From the NCBI GenBank assembly GCA_900316305.1, contig ONCM01000004.1, forward strand, positions 25,132-89,131: a stretch of DNA of 64,000 bases, given 5' to 3'. The notes under the pieces are model-generated. The model was not told the origin of the DNA. It was given only the letters and a program-made list of their open reading frames with translations, and made no database searches. Positions 5,535 through 31,072 of this stretch are shown in pieces (within the stretch, counting starts at the first letter, position 1; every line of letters begins with the position of its first letter). The position numbers and the translations under genes were made by a program. The stretch comes from an uncultured Bacteroidales bacterium. Its GTDB lineage: Bacteria; Bacteroidota; Bacteroidia; Bacteroidales; WCHB1-69.

Positions 5535-5600
5535 CCCCACACTGCGGCTATCGCCTTGTGTGGGGTTAATTGCGCTTCGCGCGTTTTGCCCCTCCGGGGC
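5535..5600. repeat. Structured GC-rich intergenic element with two hairpins
   Basis: CCCCACAC (5535-5542) pairs with GTGTGGGG (5558-5565), and GCCCC (5588-5592) pairs with GGGGC (5596-5600). A small GCGCTTCGCGC palindrome lies between them. The arrangement resembles the element at 7146-7201. It could act as a terminator for the gene upstream or be a mobile extragenic repeat; I cannot tell which. Confidence 0.5.
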
Positions 5601-13033: not shown

Positions 13034-13061
13034 GTAGAGACGCGCCATGGCACGTCTCTAC
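13034..13061. repeat. 28-bp palindromic repeat, copy 3, overlapping a stop codon
   Basis: Arms GTAGAGACG and CGTCTCTAC flank the core CGCCATGGCA. The right arm supplies the TAG stop of the giant gene (13058-13060), so the repeat has set or moved the end of that reading frame. Confidence 0.9.
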
Positions 13062-16000
13062 TGGGAGATCTTCCGGATGCAGCGCACGCCTTGAAGGTCG
13101 GTCTTTGGATGATTGCTGAACAATCCCTCATTACAATAATATTGTATAACGGCGCTGTTGAAAGTGCTGGTGTTGGTCCCGGGCATCCAGAAGTAGCTGC
13201 CGGTCAGCTGGTCTTCGTAACGTTGGGACACACTGTTGAAGTGGCCGTTGGCGCGTGCGTTGAAGCCCGTGTTCGGGACGGTGCCCTCGTGGCCGCTCAG
13301 CCAATACTGCGTGCCCGGATCCTTCAGCAGTTCGGTGCCGCCGGCGGTAGCGTTCAGCAGGGCGAAGTCGGCCTCGTTGGCCACCGCCCAGCCGTCGGGA
13401 CAGATACCCTGCACGTAGGGTTCGCCGTCGTAGCCGATCTGTGTCGCGGGAACAGCGTTATTGTCGTTCTCGGGTACGCCCATGGCGGTGTACCAGCTGT
13501 AGAGATAGCCGAACTTCTCCACATTGGCATCGTCGTCTCCGAATGCTTTATGTTTGCCGGTGGCCCACTGCAGGTTCTCGGTGAACCAGCACTGCGTGCC
13601 GATGCGAACAGCGTCGTAGATATGGCCGTAGAACTCCATCCCGGAGCATTCGGCGAGATTCTGCTCAATGAGGAGCGTGACATCGAAGGCGGGAGCGTAA
13701 CTGGAGGTCACATTCGAAGAAGTGGCATCTAGGACAAAGAGGGACTTTTCGATGGTACCGGTTTCCATGAAAGCCTGGGAAGAGCCATCATGGCTGACAT
13801 ACACGCCCGGGGCTGCACTTGACGTCCATAGTTGGCCGCTAAGCGATTGTCCCTCCACTAATCCCGTCACATGGAGCTGATCAGCAGTGACGGTGAAAAT
13901 CTCGCCATCATACACCTTGCTGGAATCGAGAGAAATGCTAATGGACTTCTTGGTGATCTTCAGCCAACCGTCCGTCACATCGAAAGAAACATCATAGTTG
14001 GTGTTCGTTGCGCTGAACTGCTCGGCCGTCAATCCCATCATGTACTTGCCACCGTTTTCAGAGGTCACATTCGTGCCGCGGGCCACTGCTTCAGGACCAA
14101 CGATGTCATTTTCGGTCAATGTTGTCCCGGTGGGGATGTTGACGGTATAACCCGTCACGCTCTGCTCACTGCCGTTGTAGGTCTTCGAGGCCGTGTTGCC
14201 GGTGATGGTGACCGTTACGGACGCTGGTTTCACGGTAATCGTCTGCTCCTTTGTGGTTGCATTCTGACAGGTGTCCGTCATCGTCCAGCTTCTGACGATG
14301 GTCAGGGAGCCGTCAGGATTTGTAGCAGGGGCGGAATCCTGATAAGTTGTATCGGCCGTTGAACAGGTGGCCGACACATTACTGACCGTTCCAGTGATCG
14401 CCGGATCAATGTCATAAGTGCTGTCCAAGTTGCGGAAAACGGTGATATTATTGGGCGCGGCAAAAGTGGGTGCCGTCGTGTTGCCACCACTCACGCTTTG
14501 CGTCTTCGTTTCCGTGACACAGCCGTTTGTGATGGTGAAGGTACGGGTCACTTTCCAAGAACAGTTGCTGGCACTCTCCACAACATCTTCGGAGGTGACA
14601 GATAGACTATGGATGTTGTTGCAATCGGTGGAGTACATATTCCAGACATCGCCATTGGTTTTGAGATGCGAAGTCACATCTGCTGAGTAACAAGCGTTGC
14701 CCAAAGTCACATCTGTCAGGTCGTTGTCGGTGAAATGCAGCTGTGAAGGCAGGACATGGTACGTATAATACCACTGGAATACCTTGCCCGCACAATCTTG
14801 ATAGGTGTAATTATAGGTAAAATCACCGGTGCAGGAAGACGATTGGTAGTTGTTGCTCAGCGTAGGTTCGCCCGGCTCGAGCACATTACCACAAGTATCC
14901 ACCACCATCGGCATTGCGATATTGGAATTTTCATGCGGCGGGATGATTTCATCCACATAGCAATATACCTCAGAAGAGGTGGGCACAGGTTCGCCAACTT
15001 CGTGGGGTGCTTCATTATGGGTGATATTAATAACCTGGGATACTGTCACACTGTCGCTGCAACCGTCCGAGATGGTGTAATATCTCGTCACTGAGGAGCA
15101 GGCGGCACCCGTGTGTACATCGTGGCTGGAGATATGGAGATCGCCCGGGCAGTCGCCTTGGATGGTCAGACCGGCGGATTCGAGTCCCTCCACTGTCGTA
15201 TAAGGTGCTGGCGCATCGCTTGCGGTGCAACCGTTGACCGTAACAGTCTCCAATGTGCCGACAACGATGAGGGTGTCGTCCACAATCGTCAGCACACCAG
15301 GCAGATAGGTAATATTGTAGTTACCCTGTTTGATCGCGCCGGAGGGCGTAATGGCATACGTTCCGACCGTGTCTCCAGGCTCTCGAGTGATGGTGTCGGA
15401 AATCACACTTTCGGAATCGCCATTCTTCAGACCAGTAACGGTGGCGGTCAATGGCGGATCGGGTGTGCCACGCACTTTCTCCTTGTTATCGGCCATCACC
15501 ATAGCGGTAGCCGGGGTGATGGTGAAGCTGCCCGGGACGGTTGCCACCTCATAGTTCGGATTGCTGCCGAGGGTGACGGAGATGGGGTAGGTGCCGACAT
15601 TCTCGCCTTCGGTTCGGGACAAGGTGAAAGCAATAACATCGCTTCCCACAGTGCCGGTGACCGTGGCGGTGAGTGTCGGGTCGGCATTGCCGTAAATCTT
15701 ACCCTTGTTGTTGGCGACCACAGTGGCAGGTTTCTTGTTGATGGTGAAAGTGCCAGATGTGGTGGTTACCTCGTAGTTGGGGTTGTTGCCAAGGGTGACG
15801 GAGATGGGGTAGGTGCCGGCGTTCTCGCCTTCGGATCGGGACAAGGTGTAGGCGATGGCATCGCTTCCCACAGAACCGATTACGGTAGCAGTGAGGGTCG
15901 GGTCAGAGTTGCCGTAGGTTTTGCTAGCATTATTAGCGGTTACGGTGGCAGGCTTCTTGTTGATGGTGAAGGTACCGGTGATTGTGGTCACGTCGTAGTT

Positions 16001-19000
16001 GGGGTTGTTGCCAAGGGTGACGGTGATGGGGTAGGTGCCCGCGTTCTCGCCTTCGGCTCGGGACAAGGTGAAGGCGATGGTATCGCCTTCCACGGAACCT
16101 TCCACAGAAACGGAGAATTCGGGATCAGGGGTGCCGTAGGTTTTGCTGTTATCAATGGCCGTTACCATGGCAGGTTTTTTGTCGATAAAGAAGACACCGT
16201 TCGTTGGGGTCACCTCGTAGTTGGGATTGTAACCGGGGGTGACGGTGATGGGGTAAGTGCCGGCGTTCTCACCTTCGGCGCGGGATAAGGAGAAAGCGAT
16301 GGCATCTCCTTCCACGGAACCTACTATGGTAGCCGTTAGTTCGGGGTCGGTGTCACTGTAGGTTTTGCTAACATTTTCGGCGGTGATGGTGGCAGGCCGT
16401 TTGTTGATGGTGAAGGTGCCGTTGGTCGGTGTAACCTCGTAGTTCGGGTTGTTGCCGAGGGTGACGGTAATGGGGTAGGTGCCGACCGTTTCGCCAGCTT
16501 CGCGGCTCAACGAGAAGGCGATGGTATCGCCTTCGACAGTGCCTGTGATCGTGGCGGTGAGCGTCGGGTCGGTGTTGCCGTAGGTTTTCGACGAATCATC
16601 GGCTGTCACCGTGGCCGGAGCCTTGGTAATGGTCTGCCAACCATCTTCCGTCACAATGAAGTTCACATGGGGGAAGTTGGTGTTCGTATTGGAGAACTGA
16701 TTTGCATTCAACCCCATCGGCGTTGTACCCACATCCGTTCTTGCCGCTGATGCAGAACCGCTAAAAGTAAAGTCGTGTTCTGTATATGACGGATTGCTGA
16801 CACTGACCACATCATACCCGATAACGGAATGTTCAACACCATTGTAAACCGCTGTGTCGCGATGACCGGCAATTCTCACTTCTATCGCATCCGAGGAGGT
16901 GATCGTCAGCGTACCGGGTACGTAATTCACATTGTAATTGCCCTGAACGGCATTACCACTCGGAGTGATGGCATACGTGCCGACATCCTCGCCTTCGGCT
17001 CGGGACAAGGTGAAAGCGATGGCATCGTTTTCCAAGGTACCAGAGATGGTAGCGGAGAATTCGGGGTCGGGGTCACCGTAGGCTTTGGCGGTGTCATGGG
17101 CGGTGACGGTGGCAGCTTTCCTGTTGATGGTGAAGGTGCCGTTTGTGGCGGTCACTTCGTAGTTGGGGTTGCTGCCGAGGGTGACGGTGATGGGGTAGGT
17201 GCCCGCGTTCTCGCCTTCGGCTCGGGACAAGGTGAAGGCGATGGTTTCGCTTTCCACAGAACCTGTGACCGTGGCGGTGAGGGTGGGGTCGGTTTCACCG
17301 TAGGTTTTGCTCTTGTTGTCGGCAACCACCGTCGCAGGAGCTGGGGTTATAGTCTGGTAGCCATCTGTCACAATGAACGTCACATCAAAGCTTCCATTAT
17401 TGTTGATAAACTGCCCTGCAGCCAATCCCATATAGCTGGTGCCGACATACGTTCTTTCGGCTTCGGTAGTAGTGCCATTAAAGTCGAAATCATTTTCCGT
17501 ATAGTCCGGATTGCTGATAGAGACGACATCGTAACCGTTCACGCTATGTCCCTCTCCGTCGTAAGCGGTTGTATTGCTATGGCCGACAATTCTCACCACC
17601 ACCTCGGTGGAAGAGGTGATCGTGAGCGTACCGGGCACGTAGGTCACATCGTAGTTGCCTTGCACGGCATCGCCCGAAGGCGTGATGGCGTATGTGCCAA
17701 CCGTCTCACCAGCCTCTCTGTTCAGTGTATAAGTAATGACACTTGCTGCATCGTTATTTTGCAGGCCGCTAACCGTGGCGGTCAGTTCAGGATCTATCGC
17801 ATCTTTCACTTTCTCTTTGTCATCGGCCGTAACCGTCGCGGTAGCTCTAGTGATGGTGAATGTGCCGGGGGTAGCGGTCACTGTGTAGTTGGGGTTGGTG
17901 CCGAGGGTGACGGAGATGGGGTAGGTGCCGGTCGTTTCGCCGGCTTCGCGGGATAAGGTGAAATCAATAACATCGCTTTCCACAGTACCGGTGACCGTGG
18001 CGGTGAGTTCGGGATCGCTATCGCCGTAGGTTTTGCTCTTGTTGTCGGCGGTCACTGTCACGGGGGCGGGTGTCACCTTCAGCACACCGAGATTGTCGCT
18101 AATCTCGTAGTTGTTCGGATTAGTAGTGCCCCAGTCGATGGTGTAGGTGTTGGCACTCTCGCCGACTTCCGTCTGGCTGCCAGTGGTGGTCACAGTAATG
18201 CTTTCATTCGAGGCCAGGCCAGAGATGCTGCCCGCCCCTGTGGAGGGATCGAATGCGGCGGTGAGCGCGGTGCCGTCGTAGGGCTTGGTGGCGGACGGGG
18301 TGGTGATGAAGAGATCGGTTGGCTCCACGGTCAGCGTGCCCGCGACTGTGGTCACATTGGTGAAGTAGTCGGTCTTAGTCTCGCCATTGGCGTTCTTGAT
18401 CACGTAACTGGTCACCTCGTTTGCGCTGGTGCCGACATCGGTCTGGCTGCCGCTCGTGGTGGCTTCCACATAGAAGTCGTTGGGCAGACCAGTGGCGACT
18501 ACGGTGTCGTTGGTCAATGCGGTACCATCGTACTTTTTGCTAGCGCTTTTCGCGGTCAGTGTTATTGGCTGTGTGTTGGGGGTGACAGTGAGCGTACCGA
18601 AATGATTGATCACCGTGTAGTTTTTCTGCTGCGCTATGTTCTCGTCCCAGGGACCGGGATTGCCCCAGTCAATATAGCAGGTGTTGGGGCTGGAGCCCAC
18701 ATCCGTCAGGCTGGCGGAGGGCATACACCAGACGTGCTCGCCATTCTGCAGTCCCTGAACATTCCAGTCGTAGCTGGTCAGCTCCGTGCCGTCGTACTCT
18801 TTGGTGGCACTACCTGTGAAGAGCGTCAGCGTCGCGGGCACGATGACGATACAGCTGTCGATGGGATAGAAGTGGTAGAGGCAGGTCTTGTCTTTACCCG
18901 TCTCCGCGTCTTTGATACTCCAACCTACAATTTTGTTTCTCACGCTGTCCACATCCTTGATCATCATATCCGGGTTCGAAAGAGACACTATCAGCGAGTC

Positions 19001-22000
19001 TCCAATCCTGAGGGCGAGCTGCCTCCACTGGTCACTGGTAACATAGTATTCAGCCCGTTCCGGAACCTTCCAATTATCGTCATATTCCACGACGTTGATG
19101 CTGTTGAGCGAGACAGGGATGCCGTCATAGACCTTTTTGAAACCCTTGGCGCGAAGTGTCATCTTGGGGTTGATAGGATCGTTGACTTTAATCTGTTTAT
19201 CTTGATAGCACCCCAAACTGTCAGTGATAGTAATGTAATACAAGCCGTTGGCGAGGTTGAACAGGGTGTCGTAGCCTTTCGGTACACCGGATTCGTCGGG
19301 GGGATTGAGGGCGGGGATCGTGTCGTCGGCTATTAACCTATGGTTCGAATCCCAGCACATAATCGAATACGGCGAACCGTCCCTGTTGAATTCGAACTGC
19401 CTGATCACAAGCTCAATCCAGCCGTCGTCAGTATCGACGCAGTTGCCCCATTTGGTTGCGAGGTAGTTAAAGGAATATTCATCAACCAATATGGTGTCGT
19501 GAGCTTGGCACAAAGGAGCGTTAATATCAGTGGTGGTGAGATAGTAGGTGTCGGAGGAGAGGTAGCGGAGGGAGTCGGGATGACCGGCAATGAAAGATTC
19601 ATTGTCAATGGTGCCATTCGCCCTTGACCATTCGTAGGTATATTCTGTGCTGGTATGTTCTGTGCTGAATCCGCCGCCGATGACCGTCGCTTTCAGGAAT
19701 CCGATGTTGTGCCCGTATTTACTCCAATAGCTATCCATGCAGGCATCTTGCTTGGCGAGGGTCGTCTCCAGCGGTGTTGAGAAGAACAGTTCGATGGCCT
19801 TTGTGCTGTCGCAATCCTCACCTTCGGGACTATAGGAATAGAAACCGGGTTCGTCCAAGATTTCGGTGTGGTCGTTGGTCGGCTTCCAAGCATAAGCGGA
19901 GCAGGCCAGTATGGTGTCGATCTTGATATTTGCCGCTGCGACGTTCAGCGGCATCACACGGCGTTCGCAGCTGATACTACCCGACAGAACCACCATTAGC
20001 GAATCTTCGCCGCAGGTAAAAAGCGAGAATTCGCCGTTGGTGGTTTCTGGATCGGGAGTATTTAACGCGGTGCCCGTACCGTAGCGATACCATTTGGCAT
20101 CGGCGGTAGTGTCGGCGGTGAAATCCGCCACAATGTTGTTCACCGTCATGTGTCCGGGCAGGTAAATAGGCTTCACCGAGGCAATGGCCGCAGGGGAATT
20201 ATGAATGATGAATTCTGAATTCTGAATAGTTTTGAGACGAGGGTATTCATTCTCGTTATAGGACCAGTAAGTGTCGCCTAACTCAGTTTTAAGGCTGTCG
20301 CCAATCATTTCGGCGGTTGAGTGGGCGGTGGGGCCCTCTGCATCCTGCAGATGTTTATCTTTCAGAGGACAGAGCTGTTTGTCGAAATAACAATGATGAA
20401 TGTTGAATGATGAATTCTGAATTAAATTGACAAATGGATCTGTCACGGTGTCGCCACTAACATATCCCGCGTTGTAACAATTGTACATGGTACATTGTGC
20501 ATTGTACAGTGCACCGGCAAGGCCGCCAACTTGCGTTTTACCGTTAATTGCTCCGGTATTGTAACAATTCTGAATTCTGAATTCTGAATTCTGAATTGAA
20601 CCAATCATACCGCCAACCCGACTGTCATTATCGGAGCCGCTGACCATTCCATAATTGAAACTTTGCTTTATAGACCCCAGATAATTATCATTTATCAATT
20701 CTTCATTATCAATTAAACCGACAATTCCGCCTACGGATTGATTGCCGCGCACATTGCTGCCGTTATAGCAGTCGAAGATTTGGGAAAAGAATGCTTCGCC
20801 GATGAGGCCGCCCACAGCAGTTTGGCCTTTAACGACGGGAGTGGAGCTGCAGCTGGACAGGGTGCCGCAGTGGCTGACAGTACCGTTGCAGTATCCGGCC
20901 AGGGCGCCCACGCGGTTGTTGGCCGAGAGGAGGGAGACGTCGTAGAGGAAGAGGTTTTTCACGCGGCCCTGGAGATAGCCGAAGAGGCCCCAGAAGTCCA
21001 AGTCCTCGCTAGTGTTTATGAAACTGACGTGGACCGCGTGCCCGCCGCCGTCGAGGTAGCCGCGGAAAGGATGTTCTTCGGTGCCGATGGGCAACCAACT
21101 ATAGTCAATGTAATTCACATCGTTATTGAGGCGGAAGTAGAAGCCGTCGGCGTCTGCGGGAATGGGGGTGGCATCGGTCAATAGTTGATTACTACCATAG
21201 AAAGATCCATTGGAGTAATAGAACGTCTGGCCGTTTTTGATATAAATCCTGAGTTGCGGGAAGCCAACACTGTTTACGATAAGGGGCTGCTGTTCAGAGA
21301 TGCCGAAGGAGAGCTGTACGGCGCGGAGAGGGATGGTATGGTTTTCCCCATTACTAAATATAGATTTCGTGGCTTTGATGCGCATGAAGTTGCGCATACC
21401 AGAGGGAGTGAGGGTGGTGCCCGAAAGAGTGGCTGCGTTGTCGCTGTTTTTGACCTTGCTCCATTTGAAGTTGGTGCCTGTAACAGGGGTGTAGGAAGGC
21501 AATGTGTAGGAAGTGTCGGGGGAGAAGGACAAGTTATAGATATCGCCAATCTGCAACGCAAGTGCCGAGACCTGGCTGGCATCAGTGTTGGAAATGGTGG
21601 ACAGACGCGGGTACATACCCTCGCCGTATATCCACGGACGGTCGCTACCGAAGGTGACTCCCATCATCTCGGAGGTGGAATGTGCCGTAACCCCCGTCAC
21701 ATCCTCCTCGTTCACGCCCTTGTAGGAACACATCTGCTTGTCGTAATGGAGGTTGTGGAACATGGTCGTGTCCGATGTGTAACCGCACACGGCACCGACC
21801 ATCGAGGATCCCTCGACCCAGCCGGCGGAGTAACCATAGCCGGAGGCCACGGTGGGATCAAGCTGCGAACCAACGATACCACCTACCTGCGAAATGCCTT
21901 TCACGATGCCCGTGTGGTAACAATCGGTGAAATGGCAGGCCTCCGACAGATGTCCTATCAGGCCCCCCACAAAGTAGCGACCCATCACCAAACCGCTGTT

Positions 22001-25000
22001 GAAGCATGCACTGACATTGGAAGAATCTGTCAATGAGCCGACGATACCGCCGACGTAATCGTCTGACTTCGATTCGCAGACAGTACCCGCGTTGAAGCAC
22101 CCGTTGATGCGGGTGCCTTTGGTACAAAGGCCTGCGATGCCGCCAATGTAGTTGCCCTCAGCGATGATGGTGCCCAAGTGCTCACAACCGTCGATAATAC
22201 CGTTATCCATCTTGCCCACGACGCCGCCGATATAGTTGCCATGCGAAGGAACCCTACTTTGTTCGTCCACATAGCAGCTGCGGATTTCCGACTGCGTGCC
22301 GTTGGAATAACCGGCAATGCAACCGACGTATGACATAATGGATTTATTGTAACTGTTGTTATAAGAGGTGTCGGCCACCAAGATGCCGTTGTGGTTGTAT
22401 CCTACGATGCCACCGACGGTGTCAATGGTAACACCGGGGTTAATTGACAAGTGCGAGCGACAAGAGTCGATAGTGCCGAAGTCGTTGTAGCCGCAGATGC
22501 CGCCGAAGCAGGAGCCGTGGGTATACGTGGCGTTCTCGATTTGGGTCATATCTGTCTGGCAACGAACAATGCGACCGTAGTGGTTGGTGCCACAGATGAA
22601 ACCGAGGTTGCGGCCGGTGACAGCAGAAAGCCTGCTGGGGCTATGGTAGTTAATGCCGACATCTTGAGTTATGAAACAGTTGCGGATGGTGCCGCTATTG
22701 TTGTATCCGCAGAGGATGCCGCGGTGGTCGCCCGTGGTATTATGGTTGGTGATGGCGCCAGCAATGGTGAGGTTCTTCACCGTGCCGCCGTTGATATAGC
22801 CGAAGAAGCCCTGATTGTCGCTTCCCGGAACGAGGAAGCTTAAGACGGTGTGGTTGCCGCCGTCGAAATGGCCACGGAAGGGACGGGTCTTGGTACCGAT
22901 AGAGGTCCACAGGTCAAGGACATTGTAAGGTTGCCCACTACTGGTGGTGCCATGGAAAGCGAGGTCAACATCGGCCGTTAATTTGAAGTAGAGGTTGCGG
23001 CCGCCGTCGGTGATTCTCACGCACGTCGAGGTATTGTTGGGTGTCGAAGTGAAGAAAGTTTGGTCGGTGTAACGATAATAACCAGACCCTTGGTTGATGA
23101 TGGTGCGGAATTTCTTTAATTCATCCGCATTTTTGATAATTATCGGATTCGCCTCGGTAAGGTTCACCCACAGCTGCACCTTGCGATAAACAGGATCGTT
23201 GGTACCGGCGCCCCGGAAGCCCAACGTAACAAAGCCCTGAGCAGGATGATTGTCGGTGCTGGGGATGGTGACGGCTATAAGGTTGTTGCTGGGAGTCGTC
23301 CCTATCGACACACAATTGCTGCCGCCAATACGTTGCCAGCTGCCGCCATCGGAATAATTCACCGAGAATTGGTGGGAGACGGTGCTGTAGGTCTCGGTAG
23401 TGTACAACTTGGCCCTCATGGCAGAGGCTTTGGAAAGTATGGCGTTGATGCTTTGAACGCCCTTGAGTTGGGGATAATAATCGTCTTGGTAGTACCAGAT
23501 ACTGTCGCTGCTGTCATCTCCCAACAGAGGTTTCATATATTGCTCTCCCATCATGGTATCAGTAGGCAAACCTTTGGCCACGCCTGTCTGATCGCTGCCG
23601 TCAATGCCACCTGCTGTTGACATTTGCTTGTCGTAGTAACAATTATGAATGGTTATGGGTGATGGGTTATTGGTTATTGAGGAGCCGACGATGGAGCCGA
23701 GATGGAGGCCAGTAGAGCGTACGGTGTTGGAAACGTAGCAATTTTGAATGGTTATGGGTGATGGGTTATTGGTTGTTGAGCCGTCTATGGCGCCGCAAAT
23801 ACCACCGACGTATTTCCTATTTTCACCATTAACGATTCCAGCGTTATAGCAATTCTGAAATTTGCATTCAGGATTCTGAATTAATCCCACGAGACCGCCG
23901 ACGTAATTGTCGACTAAGGCGTTGCCGGGTTGGGCAGTCACAATGCCAGTGTTGAAACAATTGTACATCGTACATTGTTCATTGTTCATTGTGCCTATAA
24001 GGCCGCCGATATAGGGACAATCGGCATTACCGGTGATGTCGCCTAAGTTGGCGGAATTCTTCACATTGCCATCCTTGGCGATAATACCGCCGATACATTG
24101 GATACCCATGACATCGACGTAGTTGAAGCAGCCGATGATGCTGTCGTCTGCGGTCAATGAGACACCGGCGATGCCGCCGACGGTAACACCGTACATGTTG
24201 TCGCTTGTATTATTATATTTTTTGACGGAGCAGTTCTCAATGCGACCGCCGTTGAGAATGGCGCAGACGGCACCGGCAGTGTCGGCACCGACGATGGTTT
24301 CGACAGTGATGTTTAGGTCATACACCTTGCCCGTAAGGGTGCCGAAAAGGCCGACCACAGACCGGGTTGAATTAAGTCGGGCGAGAGTATGGTTATTGCC
24401 AAGGAATGTGCCCGCGAACCGTTTCGTGCCGATAGGAATCCAGTTGGATGTGATATCGGACAAGTTGATGTCGTTGGTGAGGCTGAAGACGATGTCCTGC
24501 ACATAATGCGGAAGGAGATAGTCTTTATAGATTACCATGTAGTTCCCGTTCACGATGTTTCGCAGATTATTCAGATCATGAAAGTTGTCAACGGTCATCG
24601 TGTCGGACAGCGGGAGACTGTCTAACGCTAATCGTGGTGTGCAGGCGGCGATGGCGTCCATGCGGACGGACGAGCTGTCGGTCCAAGTCAGTCGAGGGTA
24701 GCGCCCCTCCTCGTAGAGCCAGTCGTCGTCGCCCATATACTCTCGCACAAGGGCTTCGGGACCGATGAAGTAGCGTGTAGCTACTTTTGTCGCCCCTTCA
24801 CAGACGGGATTGACATGGTAGTCGTTGTAAAACGTTGTATACGCTGATTCTACCTCCACTTGATTGCCAGTAAGCACACCGGCATTGTAACAATCTGTAG
24901 AGACGTGGTGCACCGCGTCTCTACAGTGTCCAACCAGGGGGTGTACGGTGCCATTGGCGGCCGTGATGTCCCCCGTGTTGAAGCATCGTTCGATGATGCA

Positions 25001-27274
25001 GGTATCGGCGTACACATGACCCACCAGACCGGCAGCGTACCCGCTGCCACTATTGACCACTTTGCAGCTGTTGAAACAGCCCGTGATGCGGATGCTGCTG
25101 AGTGCCTCACTGTCTGTTCCCACCGAGCCTATCAGAGCGGCACAGTTGTCGCCGTTGAACTGTAGGGGCGTACCTGCGTGTGCGCCCTTGACCACGGCGC
25201 AATTCTCGAAAGAACCGCCCATGACGTTGGTGGCCAAGGCGGCCGACGAACCTCTGCAGCCGGTGATGTGCGGGTCTTCGAGGATCAAATTGCTTATCTC
25301 GCCCTTGCTATAAACAAAGAGTGCACGATCGGTGCCGTTCGTCATCGTAAGGTTCATCAGCTTATGCCCCCGGCCGTCGTAAAAACCGGTGAAACAGGTG
25401 TCGGCGTTCTTGCCGATGGAGACCCAGTCACCCACGCTGGCAAGGTCGATGTCGGCGGTCTGTATCCAGTGAATGTGCGGAAGAGAGTCGTGAGGAATCA
25501 GGAAGCGGTGGTAAACGAAGTCCTGGTTTGCGTTGATGCCGTCGCGGAAGGCGAGGAAGTCTTCCAGATTGCTGATGAGGAAGGGGTTCTCGGCGGAACC
25601 GACGTACGGGGGGATGTTGATCACCGCATCGTAATAGCGGGTGCGTCCAGCCACCTCTACGGTGAGGCGCACCACACCCTGCTTTTGCAGATAGACATTC
25701 CAGCTGTTGTTGGGCGCATAGAACACTCTGCTGACAGCATCGGGCCAGAGACTGTCGATGGTCCACGTAACATCCAGACTGTCACACCCTTTCCACAGCG
25801 CGAAGGACTCGGTGAGGTTGGAGAGTTTCATGTGCTTGCGCTCTTGGTCATTCATGTTGTTGATGGTACTTTGGCCGTTGCCATTCGGTTTCATGAAGAC
25901 ATCGAGAAACGGAACGAGGGTGGCGGTCACAATGGAATCTTGGGGGTAATCCAATTCGAGGCGGTAGGTGACATTTATCGGATCGTTGAATGGATCCGGG
26001 TAGGGGTAAACATTGCACAGATAGGTGTTTTTCCACAAGCTGGGCTTCTGATTTTTGATGTCGAAATACATCATGCTGTAATAGGTCATGTCGTAGGTGC
26101 TGAGGGCTGCGGCACCCCTATTGGCCCGCCAATCTGCCGGCACCCATGACGATCCAGGAATTGACGGAAGGTCGCTCAGCTGCCAGTCGAAGTAGCAGGT
26201 GTCCACCCGGATGCTATCAACATCCGGATCATAGCTATTGGTGCTGTTAGGGGAGAGCGCATAGCCGTAGATGCCACCTATGTGGTTGTTGACAATTTCT
26301 TCGTCGGTGCCGATACCGCCGTGGGTCGGGTTTGCACCCGAGAGGGCTGTGCCGACCATATCGGTGGTGCGGACAATCATGGAGGAGTAGCACTGACGCA
26401 CGGTGCCCTTCTCCACCTTGCCGACCAAGCCGGCGACATAGTCACCGGTGCAATCGACATGCCCGGAAGCGAAGCAAACGCTGACTTCGGGCAATAGAGT
26501 GGAAGACTGCGCCCCCGCAGTTGTATCATCATACGCTGTCATCAGTCCGATGAAGCCGCCCACATTGCTGCCGTTTGTGCGGATGCTGCCCTCGAAGAAA
26601 CAGTCGTTGATATGGCCTCCGGAGAGTTCGCCCACCATACCTCCGATGTTGCTGGCACCACCTCTGATGTAGGAATTGACAATGCCGAGTTTTTCGATGT
26701 GTGCATCCCCCTCCATTTTCGAAAAGAAGCCTACACCCACAGTGCCGTCCGGACGGTCGATGTACATACCGCTGATCGTATGCCTATCACCGAGTAAGTA
26801 GCCTTTGAACACGCCAGTCTCGGGCCATACCGTCCAATTGGGGTCAATCTCGCCGTCGCAAGCGGCCAGATTCCCCTCGTTGAGGGTGATGTCATTCGGT
26901 ATCAAGAAATACTTACCTTCGCCGTAGGCGGGAATGGTGTCGTAGGTACCGCTGGTGGGAGGCGTTGTGCTACAGATCCACTCTTTGCTGTAGCCATATC
27001 TATAAAAGTAGAACTCGTTGCCAGTACTGAGGCAGTTGGCAAAGGCCACTAACTCTTCAGCCTTACGGATCCGGTACGGATTATTGGGCGTGCCATGACC
27101 ACCCTGTGCATTCGCCGTGCCCCCGGCGAACAGAAGCAAGCAGAAAGGCAGAAGAAGGAAGATGGTCTCTTCAGGGTGATTACGGCGATAGCGCCCTGCA
27201 CGGATGAGCATGCACGCAAGGGCTATGAGTACCAAAGCTCCAATAATCAGAAGGACAATCAGTTTTGTGGACAT
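13058..27274 (-). CDS. Giant surface protein with GLUG, MBG and FISUMP domains
   Basis: One uninterrupted frame encodes 4738 residues. In order: two hydrophobic segments (residues 4-24 and about 37-57, the second ending TANAQ like a signal-peptide cleavage site); more than twenty GLUG-type repeats (VGGLVG...NCYNAG) to about residue 2365; a SprB-like segment ending DSLGCYQDKQIKV near 2700; three YDGT-type repeats (about 2715-3066); ten MBG units (TVTADNKSKTYGDSDP type) interleaved with two related repeats at about 3067-4000; a Cys-containing linker region; and a C-terminal FISUMP domain (GTQCWFTENLQW, GICPDGWAV, GVRCIRKISQ). No T9SS C-terminal signal is visible. It is probably a fibrous adhesin-like surface protein. 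An ATG at 27211 would give a single ordinary signal peptide and is a fair alternative start. Confidence 0.88.
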   Translation of the reverse strand: MSTKLIVLLIIGALVLIALACMLIRAGRYRRNHPEETIFLLLPFCLLLFAGGTANAQGGHGTPNNPYRIRKAEELVAFANCLSTGNEFYFYRYGYSKEWICSTTPPTSGTYDTIPAYGEGKYFLIPNDITLNEGNLAACDGEIDPNWTVWPETGVFKGYLLGDRHTISGMYIDRPDGTVGVGFFSKMEGDAHIEKLGIVNSYIRGGASNIGGMVGELSGGHINDCFFEGSIRTNGSNVGGFIGLMTAYDDTTAGAQSSTLLPEVSVCFASGHVDCTGDYVAGLVGKVEKGTVRQCYSSMIVRTTDMVGTALSGANPTHGGIGTDEEIVNNHIGGIYGYALSPNSTNSYDPDVDSIRVDTCYFDWQLSDLPSIPGSSWVPADWRANRGAAALSTYDMTYYSMMYFDIKNQKPSLWKNTYLCNVYPYPDPFNDPINVTYRLELDYPQDSIVTATLVPFLDVFMKPNGNGQSTINNMNDQERKHMKLSNLTESFALWKGCDSLDVTWTIDSLWPDAVSRVFYAPNNSWNVYLQKQGVVRLTVEVAGRTRYYDAVINIPPYVGSAENPFLISNLEDFLAFRDGINANQDFVYHRFLIPHDSLPHIHWIQTADIDLASVGDWVSIGKNADTCFTGFYDGRGHKLMNLTMTNGTDRALFVYSKGEISNLILEDPHITGCRGSSAALATNVMGGSFENCAVVKGAHAGTPLQFNGDNCAALIGSVGTDSEALSSIRITGCFNSCKVVNSGSGYAAGLVGHVYADTCIIERCFNTGDITAANGTVHPLVGHCRDAVHHVSTDCYNAGVLTGNQVEVESAYTTFYNDYHVNPVCEGATKVATRYFIGPEALVREYMGDDDWLYEEGRYPRLTWTDSSSVRMDAIAACTPRLALDSLPLSDTMTVDNFHDLNNLRNIVNGNYMVIYKDYLLPHYVQDIVFSLTNDINLSDITSNWIPIGTKRFAGTFLGNNHTLARLNSTRSVVGLFGTLTGKVYDLNITVETIVGADTAGAVCAILNGGRIENCSVKKYNNTSDNMYGVTVGGIAGVSLTADDSIIGCFNYVDVMGIQCIGGIIAKDGNVKNSANLGDITGNADCPYIGGLIGTMNNEQCTMYNCFNTGIVTAQPGNALVDNYVGGLVGLIQNPECKFQNCYNAGIVNGENRKYVGGICGAIDGSTTNNPSPITIQNCYVSNTVRSTGLHLGSIVGSSITNNPSPITIHNCYYDKQMSTAGGIDGSDQTGVAKGLPTDTMMGEQYMKPLLGDDSSDSIWYYQDDYYPQLKGVQSINAILSKASAMRAKLYTTETYSTVSHQFSVNYSDGGSWQRIGGSNCVSIGTTPSNNLIAVTIPSTDNHPAQGFVTLGFRGAGTNDPVYRKVQLWVNLTEANPIIIKNADELKKFRTIINQGSGYYRYTDQTFFTSTPNNTSTCVRITDGGRNLYFKLTADVDLAFHGTTSSGQPYNVLDLWTSIGTKTRPFRGHFDGGNHTVLSFLVPGSDNQGFFGYINGGTVKNLTIAGAITNHNTTGDHRGILCGYNNSGTIRNCFITQDVGINYHSPSRLSAVTGRNLGFICGTNHYGRIVRCQTDMTQIENATYTHGSCFGGICGYNDFGTIDSCRSHLSINPGVTIDTVGGIVGYNHNGILVADTSYNNSYNKSIMSYVGCIAGYSNGTQSEIRSCYVDEQSRVPSHGNYIGGVVGKMDNGIIDGCEHLGTIIAEGNYIGGIAGLCTKGTRINGCFNAGTVCESKSDDYVGGIVGSLTDSSNVSACFNSGLVMGRYFVGGLIGHLSEACHFTDCYHTGIVKGISQVGGIVGSQLDPTVASGYGYSAGWVEGSSMVGAVCGYTSDTTMFHNLHYDKQMCSYKGVNEEDVTGVTAHSTSEMMGVTFGSDRPWIYGEGMYPRLSTISNTDASQVSALALQIGDIYNLSFSPDTSYTLPSYTPVTGTNFKWSKVKNSDNAATLSGTTLTPSGMRNFMRIKATKSIFSNGENHTIPLRAVQLSFGISEQQPLIVNSVGFPQLRIYIKNGQTFYYSNGSFYGSNQLLTDATPIPADADGFYFRLNNDVNYIDYSWLPIGTEEHPFRGYLDGGGHAVHVSFINTSEDLDFWGLFGYLQGRVKNLFLYDVSLLSANNRVGALAGYCNGTVSHCGTLSSCSSTPVVKGQTAVGGLIGEAFFSQIFDCYNGSNVRGNQSVGGIVGLIDNEELINDNYLGSIKQSFNYGMVSGSDNDSRVGGMIGSIQNSEFRIQNCYNTGAINGKTQVGGLAGALYNAQCTMYNCYNAGYVSGDTVTDPFVNLIQNSSFNIHHCYFDKQLCPLKDKHLQDAEGPTAHSTAEMIGDSLKTELGDTYWSYNENEYPRLKTIQNSEFIIHNSPAAIASVKPIYLPGHMTVNNIVADFTADTTADAKWYRYGTGTALNTPDPETTNGEFSLFTCGEDSLMVVLSGSISCERRVMPLNVAAANIKIDTILACSAYAWKPTNDHTEILDEPGFYSYSPEGEDCDSTKAIELFFSTPLETTLAKQDACMDSYWSKYGHNIGFLKATVIGGGFSTEHTSTEYTYEWSRANGTIDNESFIAGHPDSLRYLSSDTYYLTTTDINAPLCQAHDTILVDEYSFNYLATKWGNCVDTDDGWIELVIRQFEFNRDGSPYSIMCWDSNHRLIADDTIPALNPPDESGVPKGYDTLFNLANGLYYITITDSLGCYQDKQIKVNDPINPKMTLRAKGFKKVYDGIPVSLNSINVVEYDDNWKVPERAEYYVTSDQWRQLALRIGDSLIVSLSNPDMMIKDVDSVRNKIVGWSIKDAETGKDKTCLYHFYPIDSCIVIVPATLTLFTGSATKEYDGTELTSYDWNVQGLQNGEHVWCMPSASLTDVGSSPNTCYIDWGNPGPWDENIAQQKNYTVINHFGTLTVTPNTQPITLTAKSASKKYDGTALTNDTVVATGLPNDFYVEATTSGSQTDVGTSANEVTSYVIKNANGETKTDYFTNVTTVAGTLTVEPTDLFITTPSATKPYDGTALTAAFDPSTGAGSISGLASNESITVTTTGSQTEVGESANTYTIDWGTTNPNNYEISDNLGVLKVTPAPVTVTADNKSKTYGDSDPELTATVTGTVESDVIDFTLSREAGETTGTYPISVTLGTNPNYTVTATPGTFTITRATATVTADDKEKVKDAIDPELTATVSGLQNNDAASVITYTLNREAGETVGTYAITPSGDAVQGNYDVTYVPGTLTITSSTEVVVRIVGHSNTTAYDGEGHSVNGYDVVSISNPDYTENDFDFNGTTTEAERTYVGTSYMGLAAGQFINNNGSFDVTFIVTDGYQTITPAPATVVADNKSKTYGETDPTLTATVTGSVESETIAFTLSRAEGENAGTYPITVTLGSNPNYEVTATNGTFTINRKAATVTAHDTAKAYGDPDPEFSATISGTLENDAIAFTLSRAEGEDVGTYAITPSGNAVQGNYNVNYVPGTLTITSSDAIEVRIAGHRDTAVYNGVEHSVIGYDVVSVSNPSYTEHDFTFSGSASAARTDVGTTPMGLNANQFSNTNTNFPHVNFIVTEDGWQTITKAPATVTADDSSKTYGNTDPTLTATITGTVEGDTIAFSLSREAGETVGTYPITVTLGNNPNYEVTPTNGTFTINKRPATITAENVSKTYSDTDPELTATIVGSVEGDAIAFSLSRAEGENAGTYPITVTPGYNPNYEVTPTNGVFFIDKKPAMVTAIDNSKTYGTPDPEFSVSVEGSVEGDTIAFTLSRAEGENAGTYPITVTLGNNPNYDVTTITGTFTINKKPATVTANNASKTYGNSDPTLTATVIGSVGSDAIAYTLSRSEGENAGTYPISVTLGNNPNYEVTTTSGTFTINKKPATVVANNKGKIYGNADPTLTATVTGTVGSDVIAFTLSRTEGENVGTYPISVTLGSNPNYEVATVPGSFTITPATAMVMADNKEKVRGTPDPPLTATVTGLKNGDSESVISDTITREPGDTVGTYAITPSGAIKQGNYNITYLPGVLTIVDDTLIVVGTLETVTVNGCTASDAPAPYTTVEGLESAGLTIQGDCPGDLHISSHDVHTGAACSSVTRYYTISDGCSDSVTVSQVINITHNEAPHEVGEPVPTSSEVYCYVDEIIPPHENSNIAMPMVVDTCGNVLEPGEPTLSNNYQSSSCTGDFTYNYTYQDCAGKVFQWYYTYHVLPSQLHFTDNDLTDVTLGNACYSADVTSHLKTNGDVWNMYSTDCNNIHSLSVTSEDVVESASNCSWKVTRTFTITNGCVTETKTQSVSGGNTTAPTFAAPNNITVFRNLDSTYDIDPAITGTVSNVSATCSTADTTYQDSAPATNPDGSLTIVRSWTMTDTCQNATTKEQTITVKPASVTVTITGNTASKTYNGSEQSVTGYTVNIPTGTTLTENDIVGPEAVARGTNVTSENGGKYMMGLTAEQFSATNTNYDVSFDVTDGWLKITKKSISISLDSSKVYDGEIFTVTADQLHVTGLVEGQSLSGQLWTSSAAPGVYVSHDGSSQAFMETGTIEKSLFVLDATSSNVTSSYAPAFDVTLLIEQNLAECSGMEFYGHIYDAVRIGTQCWFTENLQWATGKHKAFGDDDANVEKFGYLYSWYTAMGVPENDNNAVPATQIGYDGEPYVQGICPDGWAVANEADFALLNATAGGTELLKDPGTQYWLSGHEGTVPNTGFNARANGHFNSVSQRYEDQLTGSYFWMPGTNTSTFNSAVIQYYCNEGLFSNHPKTDLQGVRCIRKISQ
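15275..18075 (-). repeat. Array of ten MBG-domain repeats within the giant gene
   Basis: Ten coding units of about 75-80 codons share KTYG(N/D)xDPxLTATVxG, LSRxEGExxGTYPIxVTLGxNPNY and GTFTI segments. Several are nearly identical at the DNA level, for example around 15,780-16,080. Two AYDGEGHSV/VYNGVEHSV-type units interrupt the array. Such direct repeats are prone to recombination and assembly collapse, so the copy number may vary between isolates. Confidence 0.85.
20196..20718. repeat. Cluster of AT-rich word repeats inside the giant coding sequence
   Basis: Five runs at 20196-20229, 20390-20422, 20479-20510, 20566-20598 and 20681-20718 consist of tandem words such as AATTCTG, TGAATGATGAA and TGTACATTG. 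They are read in frame as peptides such as QNSEFIIHNS, QNSSFNIHH, NAQCTMYN and QNSEFRIQN, most lying just before a CY(N/F) motif of a GLUG repeat. The same words fill intergenic spaces at 5640-5675, 47738-47788 and 59136-59150. Confidence 0.8.
23640..23994. repeat. Second cluster of in-frame word repeats in the giant gene
   Basis: Runs at 23640-23680 and 23740-23780 are near-identical ATGGTTATGGGTGATGGG-type repeats read as TNNPSPITI(Q/H)N. Runs at 23850-23886 and 23958-23994 are read as QNPECKFQN and NNEQCTMYN. Each falls just before a CY or CFN motif. The GGTTATGGGTTATTGG words also occur in intergenic DNA at 43905-43935 and 52558-52600. Confidence 0.8.
24897..24924. repeat. 28-bp palindromic repeat, copy 4, in frame inside the giant gene
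   Basis: Arms GTAGAGACG and CGTCTCTAC flank the core TGGTGCACCG. It is read on the minus strand as CRDAVHHVST between VHPLVGH and DCYNAG of a GLUG repeat. With its flanking T and A it spans 30 bp, which keeps the frame. Confidence 0.92.
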
Positions 27275-27284
27275 TTCTTTAATG

Positions 27285-27395
27285 GTTATAGGTTATAGGT
27301 TATTGGTTATTGGTTTTTCATCGTTTTTCATCGTAATTCATCGTTTTTCATCGTAATTCATCGTTTTTCATCGTAATTCATCGTAATTCTTCATC
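27285..27395. repeat. Word repeats upstream of the giant gene
   Basis: GGTTATAGG/GGTTATTGG words (27285-27318) are followed by TTCATCGTTT/TTCATCGTAA in tandem with a 10-bp period (to 27395). They fill much of the 282-bp gap between the AraC-type gene and the giant gene. Confidence 0.75.
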
Positions 27396-27410
27396 GTTAA
27401 AACGAAGCGG

Positions 27411-27418
27411 CAAAAGTA
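27411..27418 (-). promoter_or_regulatory. -7 box for the giant gene
   Basis: Minus-strand TACTTTTG (TAnnTTTG) lies 137 bp before the ATG at 27274. The long leader between them holds the 10-bp TCATCG repeats. Confidence 0.5.
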
Positions 27419-27514
27419 CTATATTATTATAAAACCATTTTTCCTTTGGCGGAAAATTCCACGAAAGGAAAAGGATTTTTCGGTTATAGGAAAAGGAATA
27501 CGATAAGAGGAAAC

Positions 27515-27542
27515 GTAGAGACGCAAAATTTTGCGTCTCTAC
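27515..27542. repeat. 28-bp palindromic repeat, copy 5
   Basis: Arms GTAGAGACG and CGTCTCTAC flank the core CAAAATTTTG, making a perfect 28-bp palindrome. It lies 14 bp after the stop of the AraC-type regulator gene (minus strand). Confidence 0.95.
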
Positions 27543-27556
27543 AACGTGCGGGTACG

Positions 27557-28675: not shown

Positions 28676-28689
28676 TGTGAGGTTGCTAG

Positions 28690-28789
28690 TTTACAAGTTT
28701 AGGAGTTTAGAAGTTTACAAGTTTAGGAGTTTAGAAGTTTACAAGTTTAGGAGTTTAGAAGTTTACAAGTTTAGGGGCTTAGAAGTTTA
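28690..28789. repeat. Tandem AGTTTANN word repeat (24-bp period)
   Basis: About four copies of a 24-bp unit built of three 8-bp words (TTTACAAG, TTTAGGAG, TTTAGAAG) occupy the gap between two minus-strand genes. The same words recur at 12966-13016. Confidence 0.85.
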
Positions 28790-29821
28790 TTATCGTGTGA
28801 CGACTTCGCCGGTTAAGGCAATGGTATAGACCTGCTCTCCATCGTCGTGCATGACGATCACGCGGATGAGTGCGGGTTCCGTTTCCACGCGCACGTTGGC
28901 GTTGGGCGACTGTGCCTCGGCCTCCACCTGCGGGATATGGCCGCTGTTGTCGCAGAACCAAGCGTAGTCAGTGCGGTCGGGATCGAAATCCGGCAGCGGC
29001 TGCCCGTCAATCTTGAGGTAGGAGAGCCGCTTGTTGTATATCATCTCTATGTCGTCGATGATCAGTTTGTCGCCGCTGTTGCCGCCTTTGGCAACTTTGT
29101 TGGTCGAGAAGCAGACAAGGATGTAGGAGGGCGTGCGTGTGGTAGATTTTACCACACGGTTTTGCTCATCGTAGTAGGTGAAGGCGAATTTGTAGCGGTG
29201 CCATTTCTGGTCGTTCGGATCCTTGAACTCGCAGAAGGCGTTTCCGATTTTGCCTTTCTGTGGGGTGGAAGCCGTATGCGTGGAAATGTCTTTGTACGCT
29301 AAGTTGCCATGTAAGTGAAATTTGGCGATGGCTACCGTGGAAGGTTTCTTCATGTCAAATTTGCACCAGAAATAGACCGAGTCGGGACGGCCGGTGAACG
29401 TCATCGCAGCCTTGTGCCCGCACTTGTTCTCCTTATCGGTGTAGGTGCAGTTGTCCGAACTCTTGTTGTCGGGCGAAGCAAATTGCATCTGGCCTGTGGT
29501 GAGTACCCCGTTGACGAGGTTGCCGGCGATGGTCACCGCGTAAATCTCGCAGCCGTAGCCGGTATGGCCGGTCACGCGGTTACTGTGATTCTTGGTCGTC
29601 TGTCCGCAACCCCACGAGTAGATGCCCTTGAGCTGACAGTCGCCGTCGCCGTAGGAGTGCCAGGATTTGGGCACTGCATTGCCCTTGTCGGTGGTGGTCC
29701 ACTGCTCGAAACCCTTGTTCAGGACCTGCGTCTGCGCAGAAGTGGAATTGCAAATTAATACTTGAAGGCTGATAATAAGACCCGCCATCACGAGCCAAAA
29801 CCCTCTATTTCGTCTATTCAT
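28790..29821 (-). CDS. Secreted PCMD-like protein
   Basis: I chose the ATG at 29821, giving 343 residues with a signal peptide (MNRRNRGFWLVMAGLIIS...). Five or more further in-frame ATGs lie upstream in a 12-bp tandem repeat and would only add MNNT units. The mature protein has a beta-rich ligand-binding-like domain (FEQWTTTDKGNAVPKSWHSYG, PDSVYFWCKFDM, KLIIDDIEMIY) that resembles the PCMD (putative carbohydrate metabolism) family, then a short Ig-like tail (residues about 255-343). The function is unproven. The neighbouring secreted esterase suggests a role in glycan use. Confidence 0.7.
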   Translation of the reverse strand: MNRRNRGFWLVMAGLIISLQVLICNSTSAQTQVLNKGFEQWTTTDKGNAVPKSWHSYGDGDCQLKGIYSWGCGQTTKNHSNRVTGHTGYGCEIYAVTIAGNLVNGVLTTGQMQFASPDNKSSDNCTYTDKENKCGHKAAMTFTGRPDSVYFWCKFDMKKPSTVAIAKFHLHGNLAYKDISTHTASTPQKGKIGNAFCEFKDPNDQKWHRYKFAFTYYDEQNRVVKSTTRTPSYILVCFSTNKVAKGGNSGDKLIIDDIEMIYNKRLSYLKIDGQPLPDFDPDRTDYAWFCDNSGHIPQVEAEAQSPNANVRVETEPALIRVIVMHDDGEQVYTIALTGEVVTR

Positions 29822-29928
29822 CGTATTATTCATCGTATTATTCATCGTATTATTCATCGTATTATTCATCGTATTATTCATCGTCATTCATCGTCATTAT
29901 TCATCGCTCATTCATCGTGTTATTCATC
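29817..29928. repeat. 12-bp tandem repeat at the start of the PCMD-like gene
   Basis: The minus strand reads ATGAATAATACG repeated about five times, then degenerate copies. The same unit (ATGAATGRTACG) forms the array before ftsY at 41141-41245. The array supplies several in-frame ATGs upstream of the likely start and reaches into the 3' end of the esterase gene. Confidence 0.9.
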
Positions 29929-31072
29929 GTTGGTTCCAAAACAGTGTCTGGGCATATTCGGTGAAATAGACACGCCAGTTGCGCCAGGTGTGGCCGCCCT
30001 TGGTGTTATACATGGTGTAAAGGATATGTTTGCGCTGCATTCTTTTGCGAAACTTGTTGATACGGTGGTGGAAGAAATCTGCCGTGCCGCCGCCAATCCA
30101 ATAGTAGGCGTAATTGTTGTTCGGGAGCTGCTTGCCACCTACCACGGGCGAGAACAGTCCGATGGACGAGAACGTGCTGTCGTACATGTTGGCCAGGTTG
30201 GCGGACTGTTTGGCACCGGCGGAGAGTCCTGCCACGGCGCGGCTACCCTGCTTTTGCGAGAAACGGTATAAGCCACTTAGGTAGGCGTCCATTTCTGGGT
30301 AGCAGTGCTCGAATTCCAGATCGTTCCAAGCAGGGTAGAGGAAAATGTTCTTCAATAGGCCGATGTTCTCCTTCTGGGCGATCAAGCTGACGGGGTTGGC
30401 GTCGGGCATCACCATGATCATCGGTTTTGCGCGACGCTCTACGATGAGGTTGTCGAGCACCTGCGCGGCACGACCACGGTCCATCCACGCGGTCTCATTG
30501 CCGTTGAGCCCGTGCAACAGGTAAAGAACAGGGTAGTCCTGACCGCTTTCGGCGTATTGGGGTGGGGTATAGACGATTATCCTGCGGATTTTCTCTTCAT
30601 TGGAAGACTGGAACTCCACGGTGTCTAACCGGCCATGGAGCGGATCCCAGAGGTACATATCGGTCTGCGGGGTGCCGCCGATGATGAAAACGCTCCGTCT
30701 TTCATCATGCACACGCACGGAATCCGGGTTGGCGGGGTCGCAGATTCTCTTGCCGTTTCGTTCGAATTGGTAGGTATAAACCTCGGGCGCCATCGGAGGC
30801 GTGGTGTAAGTCCAAATCCCGTCGCTGTCCTTGGTCATCCGCACGGAATGGTAGTCCTCGGTCAGTATGGTTTTGGTCTCTTTTTTCAACTCGCCGTCAC
30901 AGAATAATTTGACGGAAAAAGCCGTGCTGTCCGCATAACGGAACACCACTGTCCGGTCTGGATTGATGGTCAACGACACATTCTGCGCCTGAATGCCTGC
31001 AACAAGGGCAAAGAATGTGATGAAAAATGCAACAAAAAATTTATATTTTATTCTTAACTTATTCAAAATCAT
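29924..31072 (-). CDS. Secreted esterase (alpha/beta hydrolase, feruloyl/enterochelin esterase-like)
   Basis: The 382-residue protein has a signal peptide (residues 1-29, ending AGIQAQ), an N-terminal Ig-like domain to about residue 120 of the CBM48/E-set type, and an esterase domain. The nucleophile elbow is GLSAG, and a late GGHTW holds the likely catalytic His. LYLLHGLNGNETAW forms the oxyanion region. Relatives include the esterase domains of xylanases and Fes-type hydrolases, so an ester on a plant polysaccharide is a reasonable substrate guess. It is divergent from the CNNM gene and upstream of the PCMD-like gene on the same strand. Confidence 0.88.
   Translation of the reverse strand: MILNKLRIKYKFFVAFFITFFALVAGIQAQNVSLTINPDRTVVFRYADSTAFSVKLFCDGELKKETKTILTEDYHSVRMTKDSDGIWTYTTPPMAPEVYTYQFERNGKRICDPANPDSVRVHDERRSVFIIGGTPQTDMYLWDPLHGRLDTVEFQSSNEEKIRRIIVYTPPQYAESGQDYPVLYLLHGLNGNETAWMDRGRAAQVLDNLIVERRAKPMIMVMPDANPVSLIAQKENIGLLKNIFLYPAWNDLEFEHCYPEMDAYLSGLYRFSQKQGSRAVAGLSAGAKQSANLANMYDSTFSSIGLFSPVVGGKQLPNNNYAYYWIGGGTADFFHHRINKFRKRMQRKHILYTMYNTKGGHTWRNWRVYFTEYAQTLFWNQR

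Follow-up and report, generated by a model that had tools for sequence, protein, structure and literature searches.

How does DNA of a kind that mostly lies between genes come to encode recurrent segments of a protein? The question is raised by a 64,000-nucleotide (nt) stretch from an uncultured Bacteroidales bacterium (contig ONCM01000004.1, positions 25,132 to 89,131; hereafter the window), in which one giant open reading frame (ORF), 13058-27274 on the minus strand, runs uninterrupted for 4738 amino acids and contains short tandem arrays and palindromes resembling those of the intergenic gaps. Our answer is that short tandem words and repetitive extragenic palindromic (REP) palindromes turn over throughout the genome and that this turnover probably spills over into genes, where selection keeps the copies that can fold. 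The window belongs to a 3.28-Mb draft genome, denoted G000, and W refers to the window sequence and its residue numbering. By Pfam, the giant protein, of a surface type, has GLUG blocks in its N-terminal half, followed by 10 stretches of MBG_2 and by HYR_4C, and it ends in a Fib_succ_major domain; the GLUG match (PF07581) reaches 36.7 bits over the whole protein against a cut-off of 20.5, with no single stretch passing alone.

Eight period-7 runs were found in the giant gene by Tandem Repeats Finder (TRF) between 20196 and 23992 and, together with a degenerate ninth, they bear out the count of about nine AT-rich runs given by a first-pass annotation of the window. In order of coordinate, all on the minus strand, the runs comprise an AATTCAG/CATTCAT run encoding TIQNSEFIIHN (20196-20227, W~2350), which adds 21 nt and has no adjoining CY motif; a run encoding IQNSSFNIHH (20392-20423, W~2284); a TGTACAA run encoding YNAQCTMYN (20480-20514, W~2254); an AATTCAG run encoding SIQNSEFRIQN (20566-20597, W~2226); a weak run with 69% matches, encoding DNEELINDN (20683-20715, W~2191), which was excluded from the evidence; an ACCCATA/AACCAAT run encoding ITNNPSPIT (23651-23679, W~1199); a run encoding TTNNPSPIT (23750-23778, W~1166); the ninth, degenerate run, of AATTCAG type and clearer in the orthologue of genome G021, encoding IQNPECKFQN (23852-23885, W~1131); and an ACAATGA/ACAATGT run encoding TMNNEQCTMYN (23960-23992, W~1095). 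That the runs are always in frame is true, and automatic for any run inside an ORF. Six of the seven scored tracts end adjoining a CY-type motif, against a base rate of 0.068 for this motif, which was defined after the data had been seen; the earlier statement that runs precede such a motif holds to this extent and fails for 20196-20227. In four runs, 11 codons separate a G from C-Y/F. The positions within the GLUG repeats do recur, as had been claimed, and the runs there mostly substitute for native sequence instead of lengthening it, a correction to the "ten insertions at one structural position" of that annotation. The 28-nt REP-like palindrome noticed earlier lies exactly at 24897-24924 (no strand assigned), in frame, at W~787-795. 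A second, degenerate 28-nt one at 25162-25189 (again unstranded, in frame, encoding KGAHAGTPLQ at W~697) had been overlooked. A further 28-nt REP palindrome at 13034-13061 overlaps the last bases of the giant ORF, at its stop codon.

Orthologues that include these sites are present in six other genomes: G021 (RGIG10164, yak rumen), G003 (Tb.RUG.140) and G036 (a reindeer metagenome-assembled genome, MAG), all of the same genus, and L077, L078 and L079 (RUG14564, RUG156 and UBA2939, equal to genomes G040, G041 and G042). All relatives with a name are MAGs of uncultured Bacteroidales or Bacteroidetes, and by their record titles one is from yak rumen and one from reindeer; genome names of the RUG type presumably indicate rumen origin. 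Coverage varies, so that not all six sequences span every site; the copy on contig C2 of G017 comprises only the first 451 residues and covers no site, and weaker homologues below 60% identity (G006, G017 C133, G029, G030, G037, G039 and others) were left out of the alignment. At 15 sites, chosen for showing a repeat in at least one sequence, the sequences differ in kind or word at 14, and at 10 of the 11 that have a repeat in the window.

The replacements take several forms. Palindromes occupy W697 in the window and G021 (in degenerate form), where L078 has, by eye, half a REP and L077 an 8-nt word, and W791 in the same two sequences, where L079 has an 8-nt word. At W2285 the 7-nt run of the window and G036 is matched by an intact 28-nt palindrome in G003 and by 8-nt words in L078 and L079. 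W1131 holds the AATTCAG type in the window, G021, G003 and L077, AAAGTGG in L078 and an 8-nt word in L079. Runs are present in all six sequences that span W2226 (window included), with five words and a constant 11 codons, and in all six that span W2255, with at least four words (TTCACAA in G003, others in L077-L079). Presence itself varies elsewhere: W1095 has a 7-nt run in the window and G021 and none in G003, L077, L078 or L079; W1166 has one in the window, G021, G003 and G036, and W1199 shows two different words plus, in G036, a degenerate form, with none in L077, L078 or L079 at either site; and the run at W2350 belongs to the window only, the five other sequences spanning the site being without it and the G021 contig stopping short. 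Conversely, a palindrome-like insert at W1720 is found in G003 and not in six others, and repeats are restricted to L079 at W1748 and W1833 (at the latter an 8-nt word) and to L078 and L079 at W1775. The L079 word CAGTCAC has period 8. Because the same codon positions hold another 7-nt word, an 8-nt word, a palindrome or nothing, ancient descent alone is refuted. The first-pass annotation had named identical peptides at the same sites in all orthologues as the sign of chance or ancient descent; the aligned peptides are not identical. Its interpretation is supported in part, namely in that extragenic-type repeats are gained, lost and exchanged for one another at recurring GLUG positions.

In the gene tree (support 91-100) the same-genus genomes are not separate from L077-L079, whose genus is not stated; this mixing may reflect recombination. 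We dropped a reading of presence as gain at W1166 and W1199, since the tree shows no simple split. In G036 (L043, contig C62), about 1.4 kb of the giant gene corresponding to window 23803-25242 is missing near 5500-5600 and the flanking frames are mismatched; at this point the G036 gene appears to be either broken or misassembled.

Two of the three sites tested show concerted change, the array having switched to another word as a whole and kept its length. Neighbouring units within the array are 0.79 identical at W2226 and 0.77 at W2255, compared with 0.63 and 0.56 between orthologues and 0.70 and 0.67 in the flanks; the flanks remain site-specific while the arrays change. In tracts from four genomes, unit mismatches climb from 1.13 to 2.44 of 7 as unit separation goes from 1 to 5, a rise that is partly built in, as tracts were selected by the similarity of neighbouring units, and that fits local copying with errors. 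Intergenic arrays can differ between genomes too: among 17 gaps tried, five have a colinear relative (the other 12 have none), and the two of these five that bear arrays both differ between genomes. Gap 43899-43963 has different words in the window, G003 and G017, and gap 27275-27556 has arrays in G017 and G003 and none in G036 and G021.

The repeats are not random and occur in coding and intergenic DNA alike. In a sample of G000 (389,696 nt in seven contigs or contig parts including the window; 328 ORFs, 91% coding), 70 intergenic period-7 tracts and 16 in ORFs score at least 12, whereas one Markov shuffle per class gave none of either. At score 11 there are 93 tracts, 74 intergenic and 19 ORF-associated, seven of the latter in the giant gene. 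Other periods are scarcer (intergenic/ORF: 18/1 for period 10, 8/3 for period 8), and period 14 is a harmonic. Tandem 7-nt units at many, mainly intergenic, loci make this sample STRR-like, STRR (short tandemly repeated repetitive) being the name for cyanobacterial heptanucleotide repeats. Its commonest 7-nt words are AACTGCT, AACTACT and AATGATG; TAACTGA is not among the 40 words listed, and cyanobacterial genomes were not compared. The resemblance between gene words and intergenic words, asserted earlier by inspection, is confirmed by 270 distinct 14-mers from the nine runs, which match 36.8 kb of intergenic sequence 76 times, where 200 shuffles gave 0.075 matches on average; the matches come from four of the nine runs, two of these having one word in common. 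Column-permuted arrays give a mean of 7.8 intergenic matches and reach 76 in one of 500 cases, and pieces of the giant gene outside the runs give a mean of 1.2, the largest being 49. Elsewhere in the G000 genome, exact tandem copies of the AATTCAG word lie at three more places. In G003 and G036 the pattern used as its reversed control, AAGACTTAAGACTT, turns out to be a frequent 7-nt word in its own right, with 13+10 and 20+17 places, respectively.

The palindromes form an equally abundant class. The pattern GTAGNGNCG-N4-16-CGNCNCTAC has 212 places in G000, against two for the reversed control, and is present in 40 of 40 same-genus genomes; 24897-24924 is one of its seven matches in the window. 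Over four genome samples, counted without the giant gene in the case of G000 and G042, 66 of 69 palindromes are 28 nt long and 11 are located well within ORFs; none comes from the G042 sample. As GTAG-tagged, high-copy palindromes of about 20-40 nt, they match REPs of the GTAG type. Y1_Tnp genes, of the REP-associated tyrosine transposase (RAYT) type, occur in 36 of the 40 genomes, and their number correlates with that of the palindromes (Spearman 0.59; n=40, some of the genomes being incomplete). A palindrome lies within 2.5 kb of three of nine Y1_Tnp genes examined, where about 0.3 per locus is expected (an estimate from 212 per 3.28 Mb); this is close to the density expectation, so RAYT genes as a nearby source of palindromes were set aside and the link is kept as a correlation. 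The genomes without Y1_Tnp (G002, G011, G033 and G034) have few REP palindromes (5, 17, 5 and 4), compared with 2-276 in the rest.

The same kind of change is seen in ordinary genes. In G042, a PfkB-family kinase is six codons longer by a 7-nt array, at a place occupied by a short stretch of native sequence in both of its orthologues at 88% identity and in a relative at 79% within the same genome. A radical-SAM enzyme (UPF0004 + Radical_SAM), which we take to be MtaB-like, has a 7-nt array in G042, a 10-nt array of score 31 in G040 (82% identity) and nothing in G041 (84-86%). A ThrE exporter is eight codons longer by an array than relatives at 52-54% identity, and a SpoIIE/HATPase protein shows both an array-coded insert of 10 codons and a stretch that has been replaced, in comparison with a nearest relative of 53% identity. 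After removal of N runs, the G042 set holds 45 tracts, of which 20 lie well inside ORFs, a count possibly inflated by over-long starts or spurious ORFs. In G036, five large proteins (L152, L144, L105) carry the word GTACAAT about 65-85 residues before the C-terminus, within a Por_Secre_tail sorting domain in all three scanned with Pfam; these five may share the word by descent. The presence of arrays in enzyme and transporter genes argues for the giant gene being a tolerant host and not the purpose of the process. The first-pass annotation had suggested a process serving antigenic or binding diversity; antigenic diversification may occur, and the finding of arrays in the PfkB, radical-SAM, ThrE and SpoIIE/ATPase genes lowered it as the main purpose and favours a spill-over of general repeat turnover.

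An AlphaFold2 model of W2040-2310, computed with five orthologues, offers a rationale for the constant length of the arrays. The three runs in this block map to E185-189/E192-196, E214-218/E221-225 and E243-247/E250-254, at a spacing of 29 residues, and are predicted to form the strand-turn-strand of a beta-helix rung, where the earlier proposal had placed them in surface loops. Such a role would explain the fixed array length. The best fold matches of the run-bearing block are of the GLUG/IgA1-protease-type beta-helix: by Foldseek, the best PDB match is 3n6z, a putative IgA1 protease of Bacteroides ovatus (E 9e-5, TM 0.52, 18% identity; the sole match with E of at most 0.001 among 411), followed by an IgA1 protease (6xja, E 3.6e-3) and parallel beta-helix enzymes.

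We propose the following mechanism. The genomes would hold a population of short tandem arrays, mostly of 7-nt and some of 8- or 10-nt units, and of GTAG-type REP palindromes of about 28 nt, which would be gained, lost and overwritten at many, mainly intergenic, places. The patterns point to local copying and to exchange or insertion between sites as the probable route. Some of these events would strike genes. By simple arithmetic, a tandem 7-nt word gives an identical 7-residue peptide whichever of the three frames of a strand is read. A word that is stop-free on that strand can therefore fall in any frame, as long as the length of the gene changes by a multiple of 3 overall. Purifying selection would then retain the copies that still fold. 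The GLUG beta-helix may be an unusually tolerant host, whose rungs would accept a strand-turn-strand roughly 11 residues long with x-I-x-N-C-Y at its end; since many words encode this ending, arrays could be replaced by other words at constant length. An effect on binding or antigenicity, if any, would be a by-product, and we infer that a dedicated diversification function is absent.

Several points weigh against this reading. The analysis turned up no insertion event, no donor and no enzyme; all genomes used are drafts, with one genome for each species; and since a simple greedy rule served to call ORFs, some tracts counted as in-ORF near ORF starts may be non-coding. Five of the nine runs have no 14-mer match in the intergenic sample, which is a sample of about 12%. 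At W1131, the third site tested for concerted change, within-array identity (0.70) is not above that between orthologues (0.74). The structural model is of moderate confidence (mean predicted local distance difference test score (pLDDT) 71, against 55-37 for the other four models; predicted TM score (pTM) 0.75). On the supporting side, the words are partly genome-specific: one 14-mer of the G042 gene has four places in G042 and is missing from all seven other genomes compared, and giant-gene words match the tracts of their own genome best in three of four genomes (G000, G003 and G042; the diagonal ranks 1 of 24 permutations), in a test that comprises four genomes with shared ancestry not removed and in which the own-genome match of G036 ranks last of four. 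Against the reading, the three arrays with this G042 word, TTTCGAA, all lie in ORFs (one each in the giant gene, the PfkB kinase gene and a 901-residue ORF), and it gives no intergenic source. A flow from intergenic DNA into genes, the direction claimed earlier, is therefore an inference. The 901-residue ORF (1585-4290 of L116, contig C1 of G042) has its array near the C-terminal end.

The confinement of TTTCGAA to ORFs lowered the weight of spill-over from genome-wide turnover and raised that of module exchange, in which words spread from gene to gene between orthologues or paralogues. Words also recur within a gene (the AATTCAG type at four sites in the window, one 8-nt word at four sites in L079), and the mingling of same-genus genomes with L077-L079 in the tree possibly reflects recombination. 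Against module exchange, the flanks stay site-specific while the array changes; the arrays of unrelated genes share words, and no flanking module was noticed, although no systematic test was made. We regard this explanation as rather unlikely. Growth in place, by ancient descent and slippage from native IxNCYN codons followed by drift and with nothing imported, draws on the same ORF-confined word, on the native rungs that already encode I-x-N-C-Y, on the conserved register and length at W2226 and W2255 and on the drift along arrays. It does not lead one to expect palindromes at the same sites in G003, the window and G021, exact 14-mers in common with intergenic DNA beyond the column-permutation null, or arrays in PfkB, radical-SAM and ThrE genes whose relatives have no evident seed, and it appears unlikely.

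A dedicated mechanism that copies extragenic repeats into GLUG rungs and so varies an adhesin-like surface would account for the giant gene's share of the ORF-associated tracts (seven of 19), for the many words at the same sites and for their placement adjoining CY motifs. A tolerant repeat protein would give the same enrichment, the same kind of change affects G042 enzyme and transporter genes, intergenic arrays differ between relatives too, and no dedicated enzyme was found, no systematic search for one having been made; we consider it quite unlikely. Draft assemblies and AT-rich words could in principle produce a chance similarity of coding sequence or an assembly artefact. The shuffles, with 0 period-7 tracts and 0.075 word matches, and the agreement of flanks and frame across separately deposited assemblies make this extremely improbable. 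A more far-reaching version of repeat turnover, which we put forward tentatively as a doubtful but real possibility, is that an unrecognised DNA-synthesis process overwrites stretches of the chromosome, genes included, with tandem words, for example in break repair or gap filling that would copy 7-, 8- or 10-nt templates repeatedly and with drift. If true, such a process would keep supplying new in-frame peptide segments, by natural means, to surface and housekeeping proteins.

Parts of this picture are known from other systems, as judged from excerpts of the papers cited here. Mainly intergenic 7-nt arrays of mixed, strain-specific heptamers occur in cyanobacteria, Beggiatoaceae and some Bacteroidetes, with TAACTGA copies inside ORFs in the stop-free orientation, giving LSVISYQ peptides mostly near protein ends (MacGregor 2015, PMC4679880). 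The arrays described here are alike in unit length, in being mainly intergenic and in lying partly within ORFs; they differ in comprising many words, in sitting deep in folded domains and in that, at orthologous codons, an array can give way to a different word, to a word of 8 nt or to a REP. The wholesale replacement of one word by another at one site resembles the P6b region of the Nostoc/Calothrix tRNA-Leu intron, where 7-nt class I and class II blocks replace each other wholesale with the fold kept (PMC4476775), an RNA stem-loop there and protein segments here. Rickettsia palindromic elements (Ogata et al., via the review PMC10969869) are likewise in-frame repeats inside unrelated protein genes; the present repeats work like them without being members, the former being of about 150 bp with a conserved peptide ORF, the latter palindromes of about 28 nt and tandem arrays at the same sites. 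Our palindromes also resemble the REPs of GTAG type (PMC3733652), which are short, GTAG-tagged and high in copy number, with RAYT transposases and some copies in genes; ours differ in alternating with tandem arrays at orthologous sites. Heptamer-derived families are also mentioned in a survey of prokaryote satellites (PMC6749651, in excerpt). Thus heptamer repeats, some of them inside ORFs, and in-frame palindromes are already known elsewhere. In searches of the open-licence PMC literature, judged by titles and the opening of abstracts, we found no account of word swapping or of tandem/palindrome exchange at orthologous coding sites, nor of these repeats in rumen Bacteroidales, and the swapping of words and interchange of arrays with palindromes at orthologous codons look new.

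Taken together, our data suggest that a mostly non-coding kind of repeat becomes folded protein segments repeatedly, at the same positions, in related genomes and in ordinary enzymes as well. Two old questions become testable here, namely the origin of bacterial 7-nt tandem repeats and the possibility that new protein sequence regularly arises from repeat DNA. Caution is also called for, in that variable segments of such proteins may stem from repeat turnover and not from host-driven selection.

Related arrangements are found in the neighbourhood and elsewhere in G000. Longer intergenic or gene-edge arrays lie in the window at 27313-27398, 28688-28789, 29815-29930 and 41111-41242, with TRF units of 10, 8/24, 12 and 12/24/36 nt, respectively; several contain TTCATCGT-type words and are related to the 7-nt arrays yet different. 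On contig C40 of G000 (L089-L092, 56627-66633), neighbouring ORFs start with variable sequence followed by a FSAKEKD.ETGLSYFG-type motif, presumably RHS-core-like, at least the start of which is seen in three ORFs; an AACTGCT-type array lies near the start of three ORFs and an ATTCATC-type array near the start of one.

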